A DNA stretch of 29,036 bases from a virus. The DNA is taken from IMG/VR virus record IMGVR_UViG_3300019360_000031, positions 1 through 29,036 of that record. One strand, written 5' to 3'. Both the position numbers and the translations under genes were made by a program. Positions 3,382-13,545 of the stretch are shown here, in pieces (within the stretch, counting starts at the first letter, position 1; each line of letters begins with the position of its first letter). The notes below the pieces were generated by a model, which saw only the letters and a program-made list of their open reading frames with translations, did no database searches and was not told where the DNA came from.

Positions 3382-3508
3382 CGTCGCGTGTCTGTGTTGC
3401 GTCGGCTGCGGCTCGAAGTGCGGCTGCGAGAAGGGCAAGTGTGCCGCGTGCAAGGCCGACTGCAAGTGTGGGGGGTCGTGTGACTGCTGCCGCTGCAACT
3501 GCAAATAG
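3350..3508 (+). CDS. Tiny cysteine-rich lipoprotein-like, metallothionein-like peptide
   Basis: This 52-residue protein has 16 cysteines. Residues 1-19 look like a lipoprotein signal peptide (MKEILCVLMVSVACLCCVG) with C20 as the possible lipidated residue. The mature part of 33 residues keeps 12 cysteines in CxC, CxxC and CC groupings with lysines between them, ending DCCRCNCK. That density suggests metal binding as in metallothioneins, at or near the membrane. This is inference; no family is recognised. Putative ribosome binding bases are GGAGAAG just upstream (3339-3345). The gene overlaps the preceding coding end by 32 bases and the proposed large-terminase start by 29, so it could be a chance frame, but a signal-like N-terminus plus so regular a cysteine pattern makes that less likely. 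Confidence 0.55.
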   Translation: MKEILCVLMVSVACLCCVGCGSKCGCEKGKCAACKADCKCGGSCDCCRCNCK

Positions 3509-5039
3509 CTCGCTGCGGCGTCGCGTCGAAGTCGCCCATGCTCTCGCCGAGCGACACGCCTCCCGCTCATTGTCGCAGTACCTGCGGCAAGTCGTGATCA
3601 ACTCGACGCCGGAGCCGCGTCGCTTCGGCCAGATCGCGGACGTGTGGCAGCTCGACCTCGCCGACCGCATCGTGCCGGCCCTGGAGTCGGCAGCCGGCAT
3701 GCGGCACGACTACCGAGGTCCGCTGTCGTTCTGGCTCACTCTGCCTCGCGGTCACGATAAGACGGGCCTGATCGGGCGGCTGCTGAACGGCTGCCTCGCC
3801 TTCTCGCGTAGGCGGCTCTCGCTCTACACCGCCGCCGGCGACAGCGACCAGGCGGGCTTAATCGCGGAATCGATGGAGTCGGAGCGTCGGATGAATCCGT
3901 GGCTCGAACGCCGCATCTCGCCGGGCCGCTTCCGGATGACAGGACCTGGCGGCACGCTCAAAGTCTTGTCCGCCGACGCACCGAGCAGCTTCGGGCTCAC
4001 CGGCGACGTGTTTGTCCTCGATGAGCCGACGCACTGGAAGAAGCGGGAGCTGTTCGACGTGCTGTGGTCGGGCCGCGAGAAGCGAACCGGCAGCGTGTGG
4101 CTGATGATCGCCAACGCCGGCTTACTCGGAAGCTGGCAGCACGACTTGCTGCTGCGTGCCAAGGCGAGTCCGGATTGGTACGTCTTCGAGACGCCTCCCG
4201 GCCGTCAGCTCGCGTCGTGGATGTCGCCAGAGCGAATCGCCGAGATGCGGCGGATGCTGCCTCGCGGTTTGGCACGTCGCGTCCTCGACAACGTCTGGAT
4301 CGACCCGGCCGAGGAGTCGGACTACCTGACGCGGGCCGAGATCGAGGCGTGCGAGCAACTCGGCCGCGAGCTGGGCTTGACCTACACGACTCGCGGCACC
4401 TCGGGCGTCCGCTACGTCGCCGGCATCGACTACGGGCCGCGACGCGACCGAACCGCCCTGTGCGTCCTGCACCGCGACGGCTCAGGTAGGGTGCTGCTCG
4501 ACCGACTCGACGTGTGGCAGGGGAGCCCGGAAGCTCCCGTGCTGATTCAGCGGGTCGAACAGTGGATGCGGGACATCGCACGCGACTTCCCCGGCGTCTA
4601 CTTCGTCTGCGATCCATACCAGCTCGAAGGCACGATTCAGGACTTCGAGCGGCATCACGAGGTGGAGCGGTTCGAGGCGAGGGGCGGCAAGCGGAATTAC
4701 GAGATGGCCGAGACGTTCCGCTCCCTGGTCAGCTCGAAGCAGCTCGCGTGGTATCCAGGGGCCGGCACGCTCGTCAAGGATGGCCGGCAAGAATCCTTCG
4801 CTGACGAGGCGGCTGGGCTGGTCTTGAAGACGACGCCCTACGGCTACCGCTTCGATCATGAGGCCGGCATGCACGACGACCGGACGGTCGCGGTCGGCAT
4901 GGCCGCGTTGACGGCGTGTCGCATGGACCCCTCTCGTCCCGGCGTCGCGGCACCGGAGATCCCAAAACAAAGGCCCCGTCCCGTCGAGAGCCGACAGGAC
5001 AGGGCTGGGACGCGAGGATTGTGGGGGAGGGGCCTCTAG
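3480..5039 (+). CDS. terL: Terminase large subunit
   Basis: This is the packaging motor ATPase and nuclease. From a GTG at 3480 the protein has 519 residues. The Walker A-like loop is LPRGHDKT (residues 88-95), Walker B is VFVLDEP with D181-E182, and the RNase H-like nuclease domain shows D317 (GIDYGPRRDRTAL), D378 (FVCDPY) and D466/D467 (HDDRTVA) as metal ligands. The size fits the family. No ATG is available in frame. The GTG follows a run of six G at 3470-3475 that could serve as ribosome binding site, but the true start is uncertain by a few codons. The last 25 or so residues are Arg/Gly-rich and coincide with complementary segments (AGGCCCC near 4970 and GGGGCCT near 5030), so the natural terminus may overlap a transcription signal. 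Confidence 0.88.
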   Translation: MTAAAATANSSLRRRVEVAHALAERHASRSLSQYLRQVVINSTPEPRRFGQIADVWQLDLADRIVPALESAAGMRHDYRGPLSFWLTLPRGHDKTGLIGRLLNGCLAFSRRRLSLYTAAGDSDQAGLIAESMESERRMNPWLERRISPGRFRMTGPGGTLKVLSADAPSSFGLTGDVFVLDEPTHWKKRELFDVLWSGREKRTGSVWLMIANAGLLGSWQHDLLLRAKASPDWYVFETPPGRQLASWMSPERIAEMRRMLPRGLARRVLDNVWIDPAEESDYLTRAEIEACEQLGRELGLTYTTRGTSGVRYVAGIDYGPRRDRTALCVLHRDGSGRVLLDRLDVWQGSPEAPVLIQRVEQWMRDIARDFPGVYFVCDPYQLEGTIQDFERHHEVERFEARGGKRNYEMAETFRSLVSSKQLAWYPGAGTLVKDGRQESFADEAAGLVLKTTPYGYRFDHEAGMHDDRTVAVGMAALTACRMDPSRPGVAAPEIPKQRPRPVESRQDRAGTRGLWGRGL

Positions 5040-5222: not shown

Positions 5223-5351
5223 GTCTCGATCCTCTGTGCATCCTCCGCCGAGACGGGACACGGCCCGCACCGATGCGGAGCCGGCAGGCTGCATTCTAAG
5301 CACAAAACCTCGACAACACAAGAAAACAATTTCTTGTATTTTCGTTTTTCT
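5223..5351. promoter_or_regulatory. AT-rich intergenic region with an 8-bp palindrome before the portal gene
   Basis: No gene is supported here. Bases 5290-5350 are strikingly AT-rich against the GC-rich surroundings. ACAAGAAA (5318-5325) and TTTCTTGT (5330-5337) form a perfect inverted repeat around a 4-base loop, followed by T-rich ATTTTCGTTTTT up to the portal start codon. It could be a rho-independent terminator for upstream transcription, a protein operator, or the promoter region of the head operon and, in the other direction, of the small reverse gene. No Shine-Dalgarno sequence is visible for the portal ATG. Confidence 0.45.
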
Positions 5352-8300
5352 ATGCACGACTCTGTCCGCCCCCTTGACGATCCTGTCGAGAAGCTCGGCG
5401 AGGCCGGTTATCCGCCTCCTCCGCCGCACGCCGACCGCTCGCTGCCCCCCGGCGGCGGTGGCCTGGTCCTGCCTCCCTTCCAGACGTTCTCGCAGATCGT
5501 CAACTACGTCAGCCGGACGTACCGCTTCCGTTTCGATGAGGCGTTGCGGCATTCAGAGGCCAACGCTCGTGCCGCTCGCCGCGATCCGGTCGTGATGGAC
5601 GCTGTCCGGTCGCGTCAGATGCCGACGGCCCAGCTGGCGTGGCACCTGGAGTCGATAGACGACACCGACCAGCGGCAAGTGCAGCTCGCGGACGCGATCA
5701 CCGACAGCATCAAGGCGATCCCGAGCCTCCAGACGCTCCTGATGCAGCTGCTCGAAGCGATTTGGTTCGGCCGCTACGCCGTCCAGATGACCTACGCGTG
5801 GGACTTCGTCGGCGGCAAGCGACGCCTCACCGTCCGCAGTCATGAGCCGATCCACGGCGACAAGCTGGTCTTCCGCTTCTCTGGCCAGGCGGGCGTCCTG
5901 GTCCACGCGACGTTTCCCGGCGATTGGCAGGTGACGGATCGCGGCCGGGCCCACTTCTTCACGCCCGAGGAGCGCGAACAGCTCGTGATCCATCATCACG
6001 AGCCCGAGGACGCGGACTTCTTCGAGCCCGAACTGGCCGGCGGTCGCTTTGGCGTCGGCATCCGGAGCCGGATCTACTGGCTCTGGTGGCTGAAGTCGCA
6101 GGTATTCGCCTACCTGATGGACTACCTGGAACGGGTCGGAGCGGGCGGCTTCACGATCTACTACTACGAGTCGGGGAACGCCGCCTCGCTCGAAGAGGTG
6201 CAGGACGCGGCCGAGAAGCAGCTCCGCAACAACGTCATCCTTTTCCCTCGCTACCGCGACAACACGACAGGCGGGCCCGGTGTGCAGCGGATCGAGCCGG
6301 GGACGGCGGGAGCGTCGCTGCTCGGCAACCTTGTCGGCAACTACTTCGACTCGGTCATCCGCCGCTACATCCTCGGCCAAGAGCTGTCGTCGTCCGCCAA
6401 GGCAACGGGCCTCGGCAGCGGTCTGGCGGATCTACACGCCGACACGTTCTCGCGGATCGTCAAGTACGACGCGACGGCCCTACAAGAGACGCTTACCCGC
6501 GACCTGGTCGCCGTCCTGGCTCGCTACACCGCCCCCGGCGTCCCTCCGCCTCGCTTCGTCTTCGACGTGGACAAGCCGAACGCGGTCGAGGTTCTTGAGG
6601 CGGCACGGGCGTTCTATGAGATGGGCGGGGAGATCGACGCGGACGAATTGCGGGGCGTGCTGGGCCTCGCCAAGCCGGAGCCCGGTCACGCGGTCCTGTC
6701 GAAGCTGCCGAACGTCTCGCCCGCCGGCATTGGGGCGTTGCCAACCGGCGTCCCGATGTCCGGTGTTCCGGGTCCAGACGGTATGCCGCAGTACGCCTCC
6801 GGCGAACCGCCGGAGGCGTCCTCCGGTGGACCGTGGCTCTTCGATCATCGCGGCACACCGCTGCGTTTCGAGGCCAACCGCGACCGACTGCACGAGCTGG
6901 CGTCGAGCCTGCCACACGACGAGCCGACGCAGGTAGGCGGCGATTGGCTGCTGAATGATTATGATCACGGCCCGGCGGTACTGCGTCATGTGCCGCTCGA
7001 AGACTTGCATGCCGACCAGGACTACCTCCGCGACGAGACGGTCGAGACCTACCGCGACCAGATCCGTTCTGCCGGCGGCTCGCTGCCCCGCGAGAAGGCG
7101 TTGAAAGTTTTTTATCGCGGTCGCACGTCGCCGCGTCTGCACATCCACGACGGCCACCATCGGGCCGAGGCCGCACGCCCCGAGGGCCTGACGCACGCAC
7201 CGGCCTGGGTGTCGCTGGGTCGCTTGCTGCCCACGTCGCACGAGGAGATGTCGCTGTGGGACCGCATGGGGCGGCAGCCGTCGCGTGACGACCTGGAAAC
7301 GGAGTACCCGACGCCGGCCTTGCGGTACGCGTCCGAAGACGAGCCGCTGCGGTTCGCCCTGGAGACCCCGAAGGACGACACCGAGCCCGCTCTCGATCTG
7401 CCCATCACGCCCGTCTACGCACCGCGTGCCGGCGTCTATCTCGGCCGCGACTTCTATCAGGGCGGAGAGCAGCTGCCGCGACAGCACCTCGCCTCGTTGT
7501 CCGAACGTGACCGTCGCAAGCTGCTGAAGCACGTCATCCACGATCACGAAGAGGCCGCGAAGATTTTCGGGGGCCCTGACGCGGTCCCGTCGAAGAAGCG
7601 TGAGGCGGGTCGCTACGCCAAGCCGTCGAAGCCGGATCTGCCGAAGGACGATTGGCTGCCCGACCACATCTCCCGCTACCTCCGCAGCGACGAGATCGCC
7701 GAGCTGAAGGACGGTCACGCCCGCAAGCTGGTCCAGCTCTACGAATCGCTGCCGCCGGAAGAGGAGTTCGTCGCGGCGGCGGAGGCTGGAGCGGTCAAAC
7801 GCGGCTGGTATCGCTCAGCGGCGGACGCGATCAGCACGCTGTACGGCGAGGAGGCTCCCCGCTTCGCCGCCCTGCTCGCGGCCACGAGTCCTCGCGTTTC
7901 GGTCCGTGACAATCTGTACAAAGCGGCTGGGGTGTGGAGCTGGTATCAGAAGCAGCTGCGGCGTCGCGGTTACACCCGTCGCGGCAAGCTGCCGACGCAT
8001 AAACAGGTGCGAAGCTGGATCAAGCAGGAACGCGGTCGCATCGTGGATCGGGTTCACGACAGCAAGGGCAAGGAGGTTAATCTCACGGCCTGGGACGAGA
8101 TCACGGGCGGCGGCGAACGGACGAGGCGGCACGGCCTCGTTTCGCATGACGCCAACATCGCTCGGGCGTTGAGCGACACGGACCCTGGGCGGGACGAGAT
8201 CGGCGTTCTCTCCGGCTTCAAGGTGGACAGCTTCCGCCGCAACCTGCTCGGCCATCTGGATGCCGTAACGAATGACGCCTGGATTGCTCACTTCGGGGAC

Positions 8301-9938
8301 ACCGATCCGAAGCACTTCGGTAAGGCTCATGGCTACTTTGCCATGAATGCTCGCATTCGCGGTGTCGCGGAGCGACTCGGCATGGAGCCCGCCGAGGTGC
8401 AGGAGACAATCTGGTCGTTCTTCCGCACGCTCGCGTTTATCGGCGCTAAATCCCGCACCGAAGGCACGCCGCAGTCCGCGAAAGGCCCGCTTGATCCGAT
8501 CCAGGCTTTGAAGGCGACGACGCCGGCCGACCTCGACCGCACCGCCGACTTCGCCTCTCTACTCGTACATGACGATGCCATCCAACAACGCCTCCGCCAG
8601 CTCGGCCCCGAATTTGAACGACGCCTTGATGCACTCGCTGAGAGAGCAGGCGGCAACCGGAAGGACGCGGGCGACGCCAAACCGCAAACGCCTCCGCGAA
8701 ATCGTGCTGCGATACTTGGACGCATTGCTCGCCGAGCTGGGCGTCGCATCGGAGCCTTCATCGGCGGGCGGATCAAGGAGCGACGCGGCGGCGACCGCTT
8801 CCGCTTCGCCCAGACCGTCCCGGCGATAGCCCCGTCGCCCGACGACCTCGCTTCGGCGGGAGCGGCCGAAGGCGACGCCTGGACGATGTTCCCGCCCAAT
8901 GTCGAAGAGGGCGGCACTTTCGAGCAGGCTTACTCTCGCCTCCGCACCGCAAATCACGCCGCGTACCGCGAGATCGCCCAGGACGTCTACAAGGCGGCGG
9001 GTCTGGAAGACGTGAGCATGCATGACGCGGTGGGCGATTGGTCGGACGGGGCCGAGCCGTCGTTCCTCGCTCGTGTCGGCAACGACCCGGACTACGAAAC
9101 CGTGCGATACACCGCCGCGTGGCAGGGACTTCTCGGCAACCAGACGTCGGTGCTACTGTTCCGAGCCGCCGACGACGGTCCCGACGCGGTCTACCAGGTC
9201 CATGTGCCGGAGACGAGTGCGTCGGATCTCCGGATGTCGCTCGACCGTCTCGGCATCCAATATCGCACCATCGTCCCGATTGAGGGCGGTCACGTCGTCG
9301 TGCTGTACGACGAGGGCCGCAAGCTCCGCGACGCCGTCCAATCTTTTGCGAGCCAACACGATGCCAGCGTTCGAGAAGCCAGCGGGACAGGCGAATACCT
9401 TGGTGGCACTACCCGGACTGCCGCAAGGGCCGCCTACCGGCGAGTCATCCGCTCCTACGAGTCCGGTCGCTCCGCCGCAGGGCGTGGATCGGGTGCCGGC
9501 CCAGCCGCCGTTCGTGCTGGTGCTGCCGATGACCCGACGCAGCCGCCCTCGCTCTACCAGCAGCGGCGAGTAGGCCCGCGACGCCGCTTTGCCGCGAAGG
9601 CCCCTTCCGGCGGAGCCGTGATTCGCGGTGTCGCGTACCAGGGCGGTAAGTTTCTCCCGACGACGATGCTCGATCCGCCGCGTGCCGCAGGGCCGCACCG
9701 CCTCGCCGCTGACGAACCGGAGCCAGAAGTCGAGCCTGACGCCGACCTCGATCCCGCGACCTCGCTGCCGCAGCCGGCTTCACCCACGACGCGTGGCTTG
9801 AGTACCTCGACCGCACCGCGAAGACGGACCCGGAGGCACACGACTCGCTGCTCGAATTCGCCGCCGAACGCAGCAGTCACCGTCACGCCGCCGCCCACCT
9901 CCGCTCTCAGGCCGACGCGATCCACGAGGCCGCAATGA
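5352..9938 (+). CDS. Giant portal fusion: Mu gp29/DUF935-type portal with ParB-like and other C-terminal domains
   Basis: In its main frame this protein has 1528 residues; portals of this family are usually about 450-550. Residues about 30-430 are portal-like: QMPTAQLAWHLESIDD, AIWFGRYAVQMTYAW, the membrane-like IYWLWWLKSQVFAYLMDYLE and RYILGQELSSSAKATG. Residues about 550-625 look like a ParB/sulfiredoxin-type domain (PLEDLHADQDYLRDET and IHDGHHRAEAARPEG). Residues about 815-1040 form a helical domain (LYGEEAPRFAALLAATSPR and later SFRRNLLGHLDAVTNDAW) known to me only from large polyvalent phage proteins. Residues about 1185-1435 are another conserved-looking region ending VAYQGGKFLP. I start it at the ATG at 5352; a TTG at 5334 would add six residues. 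The last ~50 residues are Arg/Thr/Pro-rich and look out of frame (see 9740-10027). Confidence 0.85.
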   Translation: MHDSVRPLDDPVEKLGEAGYPPPPPHADRSLPPGGGGLVLPPFQTFSQIVNYVSRTYRFRFDEALRHSEANARAARRDPVVMDAVRSRQMPTAQLAWHLESIDDTDQRQVQLADAITDSIKAIPSLQTLLMQLLEAIWFGRYAVQMTYAWDFVGGKRRLTVRSHEPIHGDKLVFRFSGQAGVLVHATFPGDWQVTDRGRAHFFTPEEREQLVIHHHEPEDADFFEPELAGGRFGVGIRSRIYWLWWLKSQVFAYLMDYLERVGAGGFTIYYYESGNAASLEEVQDAAEKQLRNNVILFPRYRDNTTGGPGVQRIEPGTAGASLLGNLVGNYFDSVIRRYILGQELSSSAKATGLGSGLADLHADTFSRIVKYDATALQETLTRDLVAVLARYTAPGVPPPRFVFDVDKPNAVEVLEAARAFYEMGGEIDADELRGVLGLAKPEPGHAVLSKLPNVSPAGIGALPTGVPMSGVPGPDGMPQYASGEPPEASSGGPWLFDHRGTPLRFEANRDRLHELASSLPHDEPTQVGGDWLLNDYDHGPAVLRHVPLEDLHADQDYLRDETVETYRDQIRSAGGSLPREKALKVFYRGRTSPRLHIHDGHHRAEAARPEGLTHAPAWVSLGRLLPTSHEEMSLWDRMGRQPSRDDLETEYPTPALRYASEDEPLRFALETPKDDTEPALDLPITPVYAPRAGVYLGRDFYQGGEQLPRQHLASLSERDRRKLLKHVIHDHEEAAKIFGGPDAVPSKKREAGRYAKPSKPDLPKDDWLPDHISRYLRSDEIAELKDGHARKLVQLYESLPPEEEFVAAAEAGAVKRGWYRSAADAISTLYGEEAPRFAALLAATSPRVSVRDNLYKAAGVWSWYQKQLRRRGYTRRGKLPTHKQVRSWIKQERGRIVDRVHDSKGKEVNLTAWDEITGGGERTRRHGLVSHDANIARALSDTDPGRDEIGVLSGFKVDSFRRNLLGHLDAVTNDAWIAHFGDTDPKHFGKAHGYFAMNARIRGVAERLGMEPAEVQETIWSFFRTLAFIGAKSRTEGTPQSAKGPLDPIQALKATTPADLDRTADFASLLVHDDAIQQRLRQLGPEFERRLDALAERAGGNRKDAGDAKPQTPPRNRAAILGRIARRAGRRIGAFIGGRIKERRGGDRFRFAQTVPAIAPSPDDLASAGAAEGDAWTMFPPNVEEGGTFEQAYSRLRTANHAAYREIAQDVYKAAGLEDVSMHDAVGDWSDGAEPSFLARVGNDPDYETVRYTAAWQGLLGNQTSVLLFRAADDGPDAVYQVHVPETSASDLRMSLDRLGIQYRTIVPIEGGHVVVLYDEGRKLRDAVQSFASQHDASVREASGTGEYLGGTTRTAARAAYRRVIRSYESGRSAAGRGSGAGPAAVRAGAADDPTQPPSLYQQRRVGPRRRFAAKAPSGGAVIRGVAYQGGKFLPTTMLDPPRAAGPHRLAADEPEPEVEPDADLDPATSLPQPASPTTRGLSTSTAPRRRTRRHTTRCSNSPPNAAVTVTPPPTSALRPTRSTRPQ
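6793..6819. repeat. Intragenic 12-bp perfect inverted repeat in the portal gene
   Basis: ACGCCTCCGGCG (6793-6804) is followed by loop AAC and its exact complement (6808-6819). It encodes part of a flexible SGEPPEASSG-type linker between the portal part and the ParB-like part. It may reduce expression beyond the portal domain or may merely reflect GC-rich linker codons. Confidence 0.55.
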
Positions 9939-10027
9939 CGCACCTGGAGACACCACATGCCACTACTACCGGACATCTTCCACCGCCGCCTGACTCTGCC
10001 GGACGGCTCTCACCTCGATCTGCGTAA
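9740..10027 (+). other. Displaced C-terminus of the portal fusion (-1 frame)
   Basis: From about 9776 a second frame reads GFTHDAWLEYLDRTAKTDPE, then AHDSLLEFAAERSSHRHAAA and HLRSQADAIHEAAMTHLETP, a convincing amphipathic helical segment with GC-rich third codon positions. It ends at TAA 10025-10027, eight bases before the next gene. It has no credible start codon after its upstream stop at 9737-9739. The main portal frame over the same bases gives an Arg/Thr/Pro-rich tail typical of non-coding frames. Reading G9776 twice, or restoring one lost G in CCGG, joins the two into a product of about 1558 residues. No classic slippery heptamer is seen, so a deletion or sequencing error is more likely than programmed shifting. 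Confidence 0.6.
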
Positions 10028-10035
10028 ACGCCCCC

Positions 10036-11244
10036 ATGAAGTACCTCGTCCTGCACAACGTCCCGATCCTCGACGAGCATCAGCTCAAGGACCGCTCCGG
10101 CAATCCCGTCGTGGACATCGACGCCGCGATGCTTCAGCGGATCGCTGAGAACAACAACCGTCGCGTCGCGGAGACGGGCGACGAGGTGCCCATCGTCGTC
10201 GGCCACACCCGCGACGACGCCACCGAGCCGGAGCAGCCGGAGATCGTCGGCTACGCCCGCGACTTCGTCGTCAAAGCACTGTTCCAGACCGGCCGCAAAG
10301 CCTTGTTCGCCCGGACCTGGAAGATCCTGAAAGACAAGGTCGGCCTGGCTCGCAAGTTCCCTCGCCGCTCGGTCGAGCTGTGGCTCAAGCGGCTCGAAAT
10401 CGACCCTATCTCTCTGCTCGGTGCCACCACGCCCGAGCGAAACCTTGGTCTGCTGCGATTCGGCCGAGGCGACCCCTCGACTCACATCCTATCCCCCACA
10501 CAGGAGAAACCGCCCGTGTCGAACGACAAGAAGGAGATCGTAGACGCCGTCCTGGCCGCGATCAAGGAAACCGACGTTTGGAAGAAGATGGAGCAGATGC
10601 TCGATGAGGGCGACGCTGCCGCCGAGCCCGACATGCCGCCCGGCGACGAGCCGCTAGAGGCCGCTGACGCCGACGTGCCGCCCGAGGAGGAGGGCTGGCC
10701 CGAGGAGCCCGTGGACGACGACATGCCGCCGAAGAAGGACTATGCGGCACCGAGCGGCACGAACACACACGTTGGGGCCTTCGACTACAACTGCGGGCCG
10801 AAGAAGCTGCGACGCGGCGACGTGGACCGCGTGCGTCTGCAACGCGACCAGGCCCGGCTGCGAGCTAATCACGCCGAACAAAAGGCCGCGAAGCTGGAGA
10901 CGGCCGTCCGCGACCTGCAACGCAAGTTCCGCCGAGCCGACCGCGAGAAAGACCTCGTGCAGCTCGAAGCGGAAGGCTACCTCTTCGACCGCGACGAGGA
11001 GCTGCAAACCGTGACCGACCTCAACGCGGACCAGTACAGCCGCTACCTCGACCGCATTCGCGTCCGCTACCAACGGGCCCCTCTCGGCGGTTTGAGCGGC
11101 GAGCCTCTGCGTCACGCTCGCGGTGGGGACAGGAAGGAACGCTCTCGGGCCGAAGTGGACCGAGCCATCGACTACGCCAGCTCGCACGGCGTCAGCTACG
11201 AGGACGCGATCAAGGTCACGACCGGCGGCGAGAAAGTGTTCTAG
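10036..11244 (+). CDS. Head scaffold / capsid maturation protease (Mu gpI-like)
   Basis: This 402-residue protein begins MKYLVLHNVPILDEHQL and contains IVGYARDFVV and LARKFPRRSVELW, the pattern of phage prohead protease/scaffold proteins next to Mu-type portals. The middle (residues about 190-240) is very acidic and Pro-rich (DMPPGDEPLEAADADVPPEE). Residues about 265-320 form a charged coiled coil, as expected for a scaffold core. The C-terminus (about 360-402) is helical. It should shape the procapsid and be cut or released on maturation. Catalytic residues cannot be assigned with confidence. There is no ribosome binding site before the ATG at 10036. An SD-linked ATG at 9957 in a different frame could mark an N-terminal extension if the C5 run at 10031-10035 is one base too long. 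Confidence 0.72.
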   Translation: MKYLVLHNVPILDEHQLKDRSGNPVVDIDAAMLQRIAENNNRRVAETGDEVPIVVGHTRDDATEPEQPEIVGYARDFVVKALFQTGRKALFARTWKILKDKVGLARKFPRRSVELWLKRLEIDPISLLGATTPERNLGLLRFGRGDPSTHILSPTQEKPPVSNDKKEIVDAVLAAIKETDVWKKMEQMLDEGDAAAEPDMPPGDEPLEAADADVPPEEEGWPEEPVDDDMPPKKDYAAPSGTNTHVGAFDYNCGPKKLRRGDVDRVRLQRDQARLRANHAEQKAAKLETAVRDLQRKFRRADREKDLVQLEAEGYLFDRDEELQTVTDLNADQYSRYLDRIRVRYQRAPLGGLSGEPLRHARGGDRKERSRAEVDRAIDYASSHGVSYEDAIKVTTGGEKVF

Positions 11245-11986: not shown

Positions 11987-13051
11987 ATGGCCACGTCTGT
12001 CGCTTCTGCTTTCAATACCTATGTCCCATCCTTCGACGCGAGCGGTAAGCTCGCCATCGCGTACAGTCGCAATGTCCGCGACTTTCCCCTGAACCAGTAC
12101 ATCACGCTGACGCCGGTCAAGTATTCGACCGGCTACTACCTGCGGATCACGCCCGACAACGCGGCCCGCATCCTCAACACCGACCTGGCCGAGTTCTTTT
12201 GGCCGGACAGTCACGACGCCCCGACCGGCGAATGGAACACAGAGGAGTTCGAGTTCCAGCAGTTCGCCAGCAAGCGGTACAACTTCCCCTTCCGCCTCGG
12301 CTACAAATCGGTCGAGCAGGCCGACTGGCAGATCCTCGCTTACCACGCCGCCATGGTCGCCCAACAGGCTATGACCGGCCGTACCCTCCGCGTGCTGGCC
12401 GAGCTGACGAACACCGCGAGCTATCCGGCGTCGCACGTCTTCGCCACCGCGACCGCCCTCGGTTCGGGCTCTTGGTCCGCCGGCACGCCGACTGACCCGA
12501 ACATCAAAGAGGGCCTGAACAAGATCGCCCGGACGATTCAGCTCGACACCGTCGGCGTCATCCAGCCGAAGGATCTCGTGCTGATCGTGAACCCGGTCGC
12601 TGCCGATCTGATGGCCCGCTCGCAAGAGGTTCACACCTACGTCAAGGAGAACCCGCTCGCCGGCATCGTGCTGCAAAAAGGCAGCGTTGACGGCAACTCG
12701 ATGGGGCCCGGCAATTGGGTCCGCTGGGGCCTGCCCGAGTACCTGTACGGCTACAAGCTGGTCGTGGAAGACACCGTCCGCGTCAGCTCGAAGAAGGGTG
12801 CCTCCTCGCTGACGACCGGCTACGCCCTCGCCGACAACGACGCCATCGTGGTCGCACGACCCGGTCAGCTCGTCAACCAGGCCGGCGGGCCCTCGTGGTC
12901 CACGGTCCACGTCTTCAGCTACGAAGAGATGACAGTCGAGTCGAAGGACGACCCCGACAACCGCCGCCACCTCGGCCGCGTGGTCGAGGACTATGATGTG
13001 AAGGTCGTCTCCCCCGTCTCCGGCGTCCTCGTTCAGGACATCTTCAGCTAA
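11987..13051 (+). CDS. Major capsid protein
   Basis: This 354-residue protein is a mixed alpha/beta polypeptide without signal peptide or membrane segment. Its features fit a HK97-fold major capsid protein: a long N-terminal arm (MATSVASAFNTYVPSFDASG), a central segment with GYKSVEQADWQILAYHAAMV (spine-helix-like), a P-domain-like VIQPKDLVLIVNPVAADLMA and a C-terminal DYDVKVVSPVSGVLVQDIF. The order decoration, leader, capsid, connector is standard. It is expected to be the most abundant virion protein. Its stop overlaps the next start by one base (TAATG). The assignment rests on position, size and these segments, not on a catalytic motif. Confidence 0.82.
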   Translation: MATSVASAFNTYVPSFDASGKLAIAYSRNVRDFPLNQYITLTPVKYSTGYYLRITPDNAARILNTDLAEFFWPDSHDAPTGEWNTEEFEFQQFASKRYNFPFRLGYKSVEQADWQILAYHAAMVAQQAMTGRTLRVLAELTNTASYPASHVFATATALGSGSWSAGTPTDPNIKEGLNKIARTIQLDTVGVIQPKDLVLIVNPVAADLMARSQEVHTYVKENPLAGIVLQKGSVDGNSMGPGNWVRWGLPEYLYGYKLVVEDTVRVSSKKGASSLTTGYALADNDAIVVARPGQLVNQAGGPSWSTVHVFSYEEMTVESKDDPDNRRHLGRVVEDYDVKVVSPVSGVLVQDIFS

Positions 13052-13545
13052 TGCCTCTCACGCCTGCCTCCTCGGCGAGTGCTTACTGCACCGCCGAGGA
13101 GTTTCTCGAACGCTTCGACGTGCGGTGGGTCGGCGACCTGCTCTCCGACACGGGACAGAAGCTGACCCCGCCGGACGTGAAAACCTCCACGTTGCTGACG
13201 AGCCTGCTCAAGGAGGCCAGCGGCGACGTGGAGGCAGCGTGCTTCGCCGGCAAGCGGTACGACAAGGACGACCTCGCGGCGTTGACCGGCAATAGCGTGC
13301 AGATGCTCAGAGGCATCGTCGCCGGCTTGACCGCGTTCTACCTCTGGGAACGCCGTCCGGAGCGACGCGGCGAGATGCCGAAACGTTGTGAGATCGCGTT
13401 GCAGAAGCTCCAGGCACTCCGCAACGGCGACCGCATCTTCGCTTTCACCGAATCCGCTGAAGCGGGCAAGGACTCCCCCGTCGTCCTCCCTGCCACTACG
13501 CTCGTCTCTCGCACCACCCGCTACTTCGGCCAGCTCGACATTTAA
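13051..13545 (+). CDS. Head-tail connector / neck protein (Mu gp36, DUF1320-like)
   Basis: This 164-residue protein opens with YCTAEEFLERFDVRWVGDLL and continues TLLTSLLKEASGDVEAACFAG. A helix follows with AGLTAFYLWERRP and then RCEIALQKLQALRNGDRIF. This matches the helical fold of Mu gp36/DUF1320 and gp6-type connectors that sit under the portal and receive the tail. It starts in the capsid stop codon (TAATG) and is therefore coupled to it. The C-terminal tail is Ser/Thr-rich and probably flexible. Confidence 0.75.
   Translation: MPLTPASSASAYCTAEEFLERFDVRWVGDLLSDTGQKLTPPDVKTSTLLTSLLKEASGDVEAACFAGKRYDKDDLAALTGNSVQMLRGIVAGLTAFYLWERRPERRGEMPKRCEIALQKLQALRNGDRIFAFTESAEAGKDSPVVLPATTLVSRTTRYFGQLDI

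Follow-up and report, generated by a model that had tools for sequence, protein, structure and literature searches.

Phages and conjugative elements encode polyvalent proteins, described by Iyer et al. in 2017, in which several disparate enzymatic domains are joined in one polypeptide encoded among virion genes; fusions of portal and MuF proteins to PBECR and 2H domains were described in the same work (PMC5512222). MuF polymorphic toxins likewise use a head protein as the carrier of a variable C-terminal cassette (PMC5576092). It is well established that T4 injects anti-restriction proteins (PMC12373910) and that SAM lyases serve in counter-defence (PMC7877911); a SAM-AMP lyase encoded by a phage ranks as a candidate anti-CRISPR (PMC12255297).

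The window analysed here, an IMG/VR virus record of 29,036 bases with 65% G+C, contains on its plus strand (as are all window features given below) a gene that we lean slightly towards reading as a Mu-type portal whose swappable polyvalent counter-defence cassette travels in the virion and enters the host along with the DNA. At least two unrelated predicted activities, together with domains common to other polyvalent proteins, place its product among the polyvalent proteins, and the likeness extends to their ParB/Srx, InPase, ART and LPD modules (PMC5512222). It differs from them in that the portal bears ParB-like, OGG2-type glycosylase and SAM-lyase-like domains; the main text of that paper does not contain the word 'glycosylase'. 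Compared with the MuF toxins (PMC5576092), the carrier is the portal, a MuF domain was not found, and the cassette comprises several domains of counter-defence-like character. As far as our searches show, three things are new: a portal that bears glycosylase and SAM-lyase-like domains, a fold assigned to DUF7178, and portal extensions that are swapped across the clade. The T4 proteins IPI, IPII and IPIII are also virion-borne and block restriction on entry, but they are small separate proteins and not portal fusions; we know of no sequence relation between them and the extension in the window. The original prediction saw here a candidate for a new system; the system is not entirely new, since portal and MuF fusions to effector domains have been known since 2017 (PMC5512222).

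The fusion open reading frame occupies 5352..9938, from an ATG at 5352 to an in-frame stop at 9938, as indicated by the ORF call, the portal profile match and the codon-position G+C. Its longest form starts at a TTG at 5334 (ATG 5352 is then codon 7) and encodes 1534 aa, so that the in-frame product measures 1528-1534 aa depending on the start. The third codon position is the most G+C-rich across nearly the entire frame, which is consistent with one coding frame, and the portal and the two large downstream domains (domains 2 and 3) are each covered by homology independently. Near 9750-9795 the coding signal leaves frame 0 for the -1 frame, which stops at 10025-10027. The probable true C-terminus is thus encoded in the shifted frame at 9779..10024, and the roughly 50 residues preceding the stop at 9938 look out of frame. 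An indel in the assembly or a frameshift may explain the change; inspection of 9750-10027 by eye showed no obvious slippery sequence. This switch accounts for the end coordinate in the earlier description of an extended portal at 5352-10027, which had read through it: the frame is open to 9938, and reaching 10027 requires the change. Similarly, the length of about 1550 residues given there would apply if the frame change is real.

The N-terminal Mu-type (DUF935) portal domain (aa 79-445, 5568..6668), already recognised as such in the original prediction, matches Portal_Mu (PF06074) with E 4.1e-44 and 151.7 bits against a curated cut-off of 23.9, over profile positions 5-336 of 336, and phrog_113 with E 4.9e-28. 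The fusion lies between the genes for the terminase large subunit (3441..5039; phrog_9, E 1.1e-21) and a Mu I-like head maturation protease/scaffold (10036..11244; phrog_976, E 4.3e-7). Together with a major head protein (11987..13051; phrog_1005, E 1.1e-5) and a Mu gp36-like head-tail protein (13051..13545; phrog_195, and PF07030 with E 4.8e-4, slightly below the curated cut-off), these neighbours constitute a Mu-type head module. The closest relative found, L091 (IMGVR_UViG_3300044960_000528), has a portal 59% identical, with 53% identity in the terminase, 52% in the major head protein and 52% over the N-terminal half of the protease. The protease, which also has a homologue in L113, a Planctomycetota MAG contig, is a candidate for cleaving the portal extension. 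Relatives were found with alignments, which were required: nothing was recovered when viral contigs were scanned with one sequence, be it the whole protein or domain 3, or when genome contigs were scanned with the portal.

Within the fusion protein there is no Pfam match to a MuF domain (PF04233/PF06152) at E 1 and no minor-head family match in PHROGs, and no metallopeptidase domain was found. An ordinary head-completion or MuF sequence was considered for the extension and rejected on the Pfam and PHROG results, its parts being polyvalent modules. As the original prediction had expected, profile searches thus recover effector modules and not head-completion sequence; the same modules occur in giant phage proteins and in other portals, as would be expected of an effector or anti-defence cassette borne by the virion.

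The first part of the extension, a ParB/sulfiredoxin-like domain (aa 547-626, 6972..7211), was matched by PHROG profiles when the isolated piece aa 481-669 was searched: weakly by the ParB-like phrog_1033 (E 1.5e-4, spanning aa 547-615), and by phrog_26754 (E 0.018) around a DGHHR motif at aa 606-610 (7149-7163). The ParB-like domain with a GHHR motif proposed from the first reading is thus retained, and we assign it to the ParB/Srx-like group with moderate confidence because the sequence offers a weak profile match and one motif. No close relatives of this region were found in phages or in the loci, and its structure model was too poor for use. Direct PDB sequence searches with the extension domains gave chance matches only.

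Domain 2 (aa 778-1060, 7665..8513), initially described as a large helical domain, is indeed a domain and can be refined to an OGG2-type helix-hairpin-helix (HhH) DNA glycosylase/AP-lyase fold. It matches DUF7178 (PF23802) with E 1.3e-11, and aa 940-1031 match both DUF7178 and phrog_3842. The AlphaFold model, built with 47 sequences, is confident (mostly pLDDT >90). Foldseek ranked SsOgg first (E 0.097, prob 0.99), and VIA-align gave Z 11.2 for TmOGG2 (3.1 A, 186/209 residues), 11.1 for MjaOGG2 and 10.7 for SsOgg; all 26 rows with Z >3.5 were 8-oxoG or other HhH DNA glycosylases (MutY, ROS1, Mag2). Sequence profiles agree, hhalign against two OGG-HhH proteins scoring 25.15 with none of 150 column shuffles as good, at an E of only 0.01. 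Lys963 (8220-8222), Asp981 (8274-8276), Gln1023 (8400-8402) and Trp1027 (8412-8414) are invariant in 47/47 sequences. The Lys963/Asp981 pair is 18 residues apart, compared with 19 for the catalytic pair Lys249/Asp268 of hOGG1 (PMC3397491). The spacing of Gln1023/Trp1027 equals that of the MjaOGG2 base-recognition pair Asp194/Trp198, itself equivalent to hOGG1 Gln315/Phe319, and this suggests that the two pairs correspond. The domain therefore resembles the OGG2/AGOG glycosylases in fold (Z 10.7-11.2), in its catalytic Lys and Asp and in a Trp and Gln/Asp near the C-terminal helix, but it is only about 10-13% identical to them in structural alignments, carries inserted segments and lies inside a putative virion protein. 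At the level of the modelled fold it is an OGG2-type 8-oxoguanine DNA glycosylase/AP lyase, and thus a predicted enzyme; if this is correct, DUF7178 gains a fold.

Standalone relatives of domain 2, 190-210 aa long, occur in actinophages, and some are annotated as DNA glycosylase or N-glycosylase. They are about 25-30% identical to the window domain and have the same Lys/Asp pair, but lack both the portal fusion and the inserted segments. A long form, 34-42% identical by tblastn, was found in 80 viral loci, in ORFs of about 420 to >3600 aa that are mostly large; some of these ORFs also hold ART-PolyVal, LPD22, LPD23, LPD38/39, RadC or InPase. The label 'portal protein' on gp111 of Tunturi_3 (L002, 11677-12273) raised the possibility of another portal fusion, which was rejected: gp111 turned out to be a DUF7178 protein of 198 aa that stands alone, and the label suggests that portal fusions with DUF7178 in the databases have misled annotation. 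In L115 and L116, from an Acidobacteria MAG, OGG-type glycosylase genes overlap or adjoin ORFs of QueC-like appearance, and this setting recalls anti-phage defence systems that contain QueC; a published link between an OGG-type domain and such systems was sought and not found.

Domain 3 (aa 1180-1400, 8871..9533), originally noted as a further conserved region, is likewise a domain, for which a more specific assignment can now be proposed. The model (pLDDT 80) has a beta-alpha-beta-beta-alpha-beta core with an extra alpha/beta segment. Foldseek placed T3 SAM lyase second (E 6.7e-4, prob 1.00), and VIA gave Z 8.6-8.8 for the Svi3-3 SAM lyase (6zm9: 2.5 A over 102/129) and 7.3-7.5 for T3. AcrB porter domains (to 9.4) and PII (7.8) score about as well; these and ACT matches were judged to reflect a common ferredoxin-like arrangement. 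In a viral structure library the fold recurs in many polyvalent-type proteins, with E down to 6e-11, and annotated SAM hydrolases match it more weakly. A scan with an alignment of the window and L039 sequences recovered 11 viral loci; three bacterial MAG contigs (Acidobacteria, Planctomycetota and Thermoguttaceae) were added later. Gly1234, Trp1236, Glu1241 (9054-9056) and Gln1270 (9141-9143) are invariant in 13/13 members.

These four positions recall those of known lyases. Svi3-3 uses Gly56, Tyr58, Glu69 and Gln104 (PMC7877911), and in the SAM-AMP lyase Glu71 closes the T-loop and Gln108 belongs to the B-loop (PMC12255297). In domain 3, the strand that leads into the hairpin contains Gly1234 and Trp1236, Glu1241 follows closely on the hairpin, and Gln1270 is in the loop preceding the next strand. 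Their putative correspondence to the Svi3-3 residues is drawn from the shared order and from matching secondary-structure elements. T3 SAMase, Svi3-3 and AcrIIIB4 (a SAM-AMP lyase) appear to share with domain 3 the ferredoxin-like core, the Glu at the T-loop end, the B-loop Gln and a G-x-aromatic ahead of the loop; domain 3 differs from phage SAM lyases in its extra alpha/beta segment, its shorter T-loop and its place on a portal. The window protein has no Pfam match to the SAM lyase family PF23780, and hhalign against T3 SAM lyases alone was no better than shuffles. Against three polyvalent SAM lyases it scored 20.56 with 0/200 shuffles as good, the best piece being a C-terminal G.GE..G match outside the active site, with the active-site alignment the second alternative. 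Three distinct polyvalent ORFs bearing domain 2 (L069/L071, L086 and L087) carry SAM lyase domains according to a local SAM lyase profile, and Pfam S-AdoMet_lyase matches 2 of the 20 such ORFs scanned. Their loops read G-NY-KGST-E-NS, G-QY-LGVP-E-HS and G-MY-QGVP-E-AS, next to G-DW-SDGA-E-NS in most domain 3 members. Because of the fold, the active-site positions and these polyvalent SAM lyases (and not the T3 profile comparison), domain 3 is probably SAM-lyase-like, with a corresponding predicted activity.

Related portals carry different payloads. The portal frame of L091 is closed by a stop, and domain 3 lies in a frame of its own, preceded by a diverged glycosylase-like part, the latter judged by eye and from a blastp match starting at aa 1012. 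In L113 an 842-aa ORF joins a 40% identical portal directly to domain 3, and the gene order is altered, this gene following the head genes. A search with the three-portal alignment added 10 further clade loci besides L091 itself, and all new clade portal ORFs that end within their contig have a long extension of varying content. For example, L128 and L129 join a Mu-type portal to InPase (PF18823, E 4.6e-51) with a weak nucleotidyltransferase match, which in L128 (7881-10688) lies between portal and InPase. L127 combines portal, sigma-like and ParB-like parts. In L125, L126 and L133 the extension looks GNAT-like by eye, and the PHROG match for L125 and L133 is only to phrog_2563, of unknown function. 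The ORFs of L134 (ParB-like) and L131 reach the contig end and already have long extensions; those of L130 and L132 end too early on the contig for the extension to be judged. The pattern in this clade is one of a payload that changes between relatives and a carrier that stays. Domain 3 moreover occurs on an unrelated lambda-type portal, in a 1324-aa ORF (L097, 7490-11461) that continues into ParB-like, domain 3 and Zeta toxin kinase parts. Further carriers of domain 3 are a protein that resembles MuF/head-morphogenesis proteins (L100) and a giant protein whose matches are DarB-like and virion structural (L093).

As a rule, the C-termini of portal proteins point towards the inside of the head, and a portal ring consists of 12 copies. 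About 12 copies of the cassette would therefore enter each head as part of the ring, and the C-terminal region, which probably extends inwards, might be freed by the neighbouring prohead protease or by autoproteolysis and leave together with the DNA. Once inside the new host, the SAM-lyase-like domain would break down SAM or a signal derived from it, and so could block SAM-dependent restriction, BREX or type III CRISPR signalling; the ParB-like and glycosylase domains may have as targets nucleotides, or DNA that carries modifications or damage. The cassette would thus act in the first minutes after DNA entry. If this is true, the portal, usually viewed as a DNA valve, also carries a changeable set of enzymes, and a virion-delivered SAM-lyase-like anti-restriction or anti-CRISPR domain is suggested; how portal-fused cargo is released and crosses the portal channel becomes testable. 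Against this reading, a folded enzyme on the portal must be cleaved and unfolded to traverse the channel, and in L091, the closest relative, portal and effector are separate genes. A broader version, possible rather than probable, would make the clade portals a general delivery chassis with a constant core and a swapped cassette, bringing in, at about 12 copies per virion, enzymes including a SAM/SAM-AMP lyase and an OGG-type glycosylase before phage gene expression. Its cassettes would comprise ParB-like with DNA glycosylase and SAM lyase, SAM-lyase-like alone, InPase, sigma-like with ParB-like, GNAT-like and, on the lambda-type portal, Zeta toxin.

Other explanations can account for parts of these data. 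The glycosylase/AP-lyase and ParB-like domains could form a virion-borne repair kit that removes oxidised guanines accumulating in the genome of extracellular particles, with domain 3 guarding the repaired DNA from restriction or binding a ligand. The top fold matches of domain 2 are indeed 8-oxoG glycosylases, the spacing of Gln1023/Trp1027 fits base recognition as in MjaOGG2, and the standalone relative in Tunturi_3 adjoins a gene annotated as ATP-dependent DNA ligase. However, domain 2 is accompanied by ADP-ribosyltransferase and other conflict domains, not by repair domains, and we regard this reading as unlikely. To a similar degree we doubt a late role of the extension in the producing cell (for instance SAM depletion, superinfection exclusion or nicking of host DNA), in which case the prohead protease would cut the extension off before assembly or in its course and it would not be delivered. 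The protease gene lies directly downstream of the fusion, and the separate effector gene of L091 implies that packaging by fusion is not obligatory; yet repeated fusion to portals of two families, and the presence of domain 3 on the MuF-like protein of L100, point to virion targeting.

It is improbable that the extension consists of inactive DNA- or nucleotide-binding folds that replace Mu F (gp30) and organise DNA around the portal. Mu F lies between portal and protease in the Mu gene order, and the extension has just that position. Nevertheless, the catalytic residues are invariant (47/47 for domain 2 and 13/13 for domain 3), the content of the extension changes completely between relatives, unlike a structural part, and domain 3 remains on the portal in L113 even though that gene follows the head genes. 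An assembly artefact, in which the stop that parts a portal gene from a polyvalent gene of its own was lost, would fit the separate genes of L091 and the likely indel or frameshift near 9750-9795. Against it, other portals of the clade are fused too, as is that of L097, and the junction between portal and extension contains neither a stop nor a clear ribosome-binding site; this explanation is highly improbable.

Short conserved segments flank some of the payloads. A linker with the pattern LP.GLP.NP..G ... I.GKTY.F ... W is shared by L113, L125, L126 and L133, between the portal core and unrelated C-terminal domains, and is possibly a recombination junction. Downstream of domain 3, a KAPSGG..RG..Y.GG.F.P motif is present in the window (9597..9659) and in L091, with 58% identity by tblastn (E 2e-5). 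Its short form, APxGG ... GG.F.P, thus follows the effector domains at 9597-9659 in the window and at 10703-10789 in L091, and a similar motif lies inside the extension of L134. This recurring motif could be a junction or a targeting signal.
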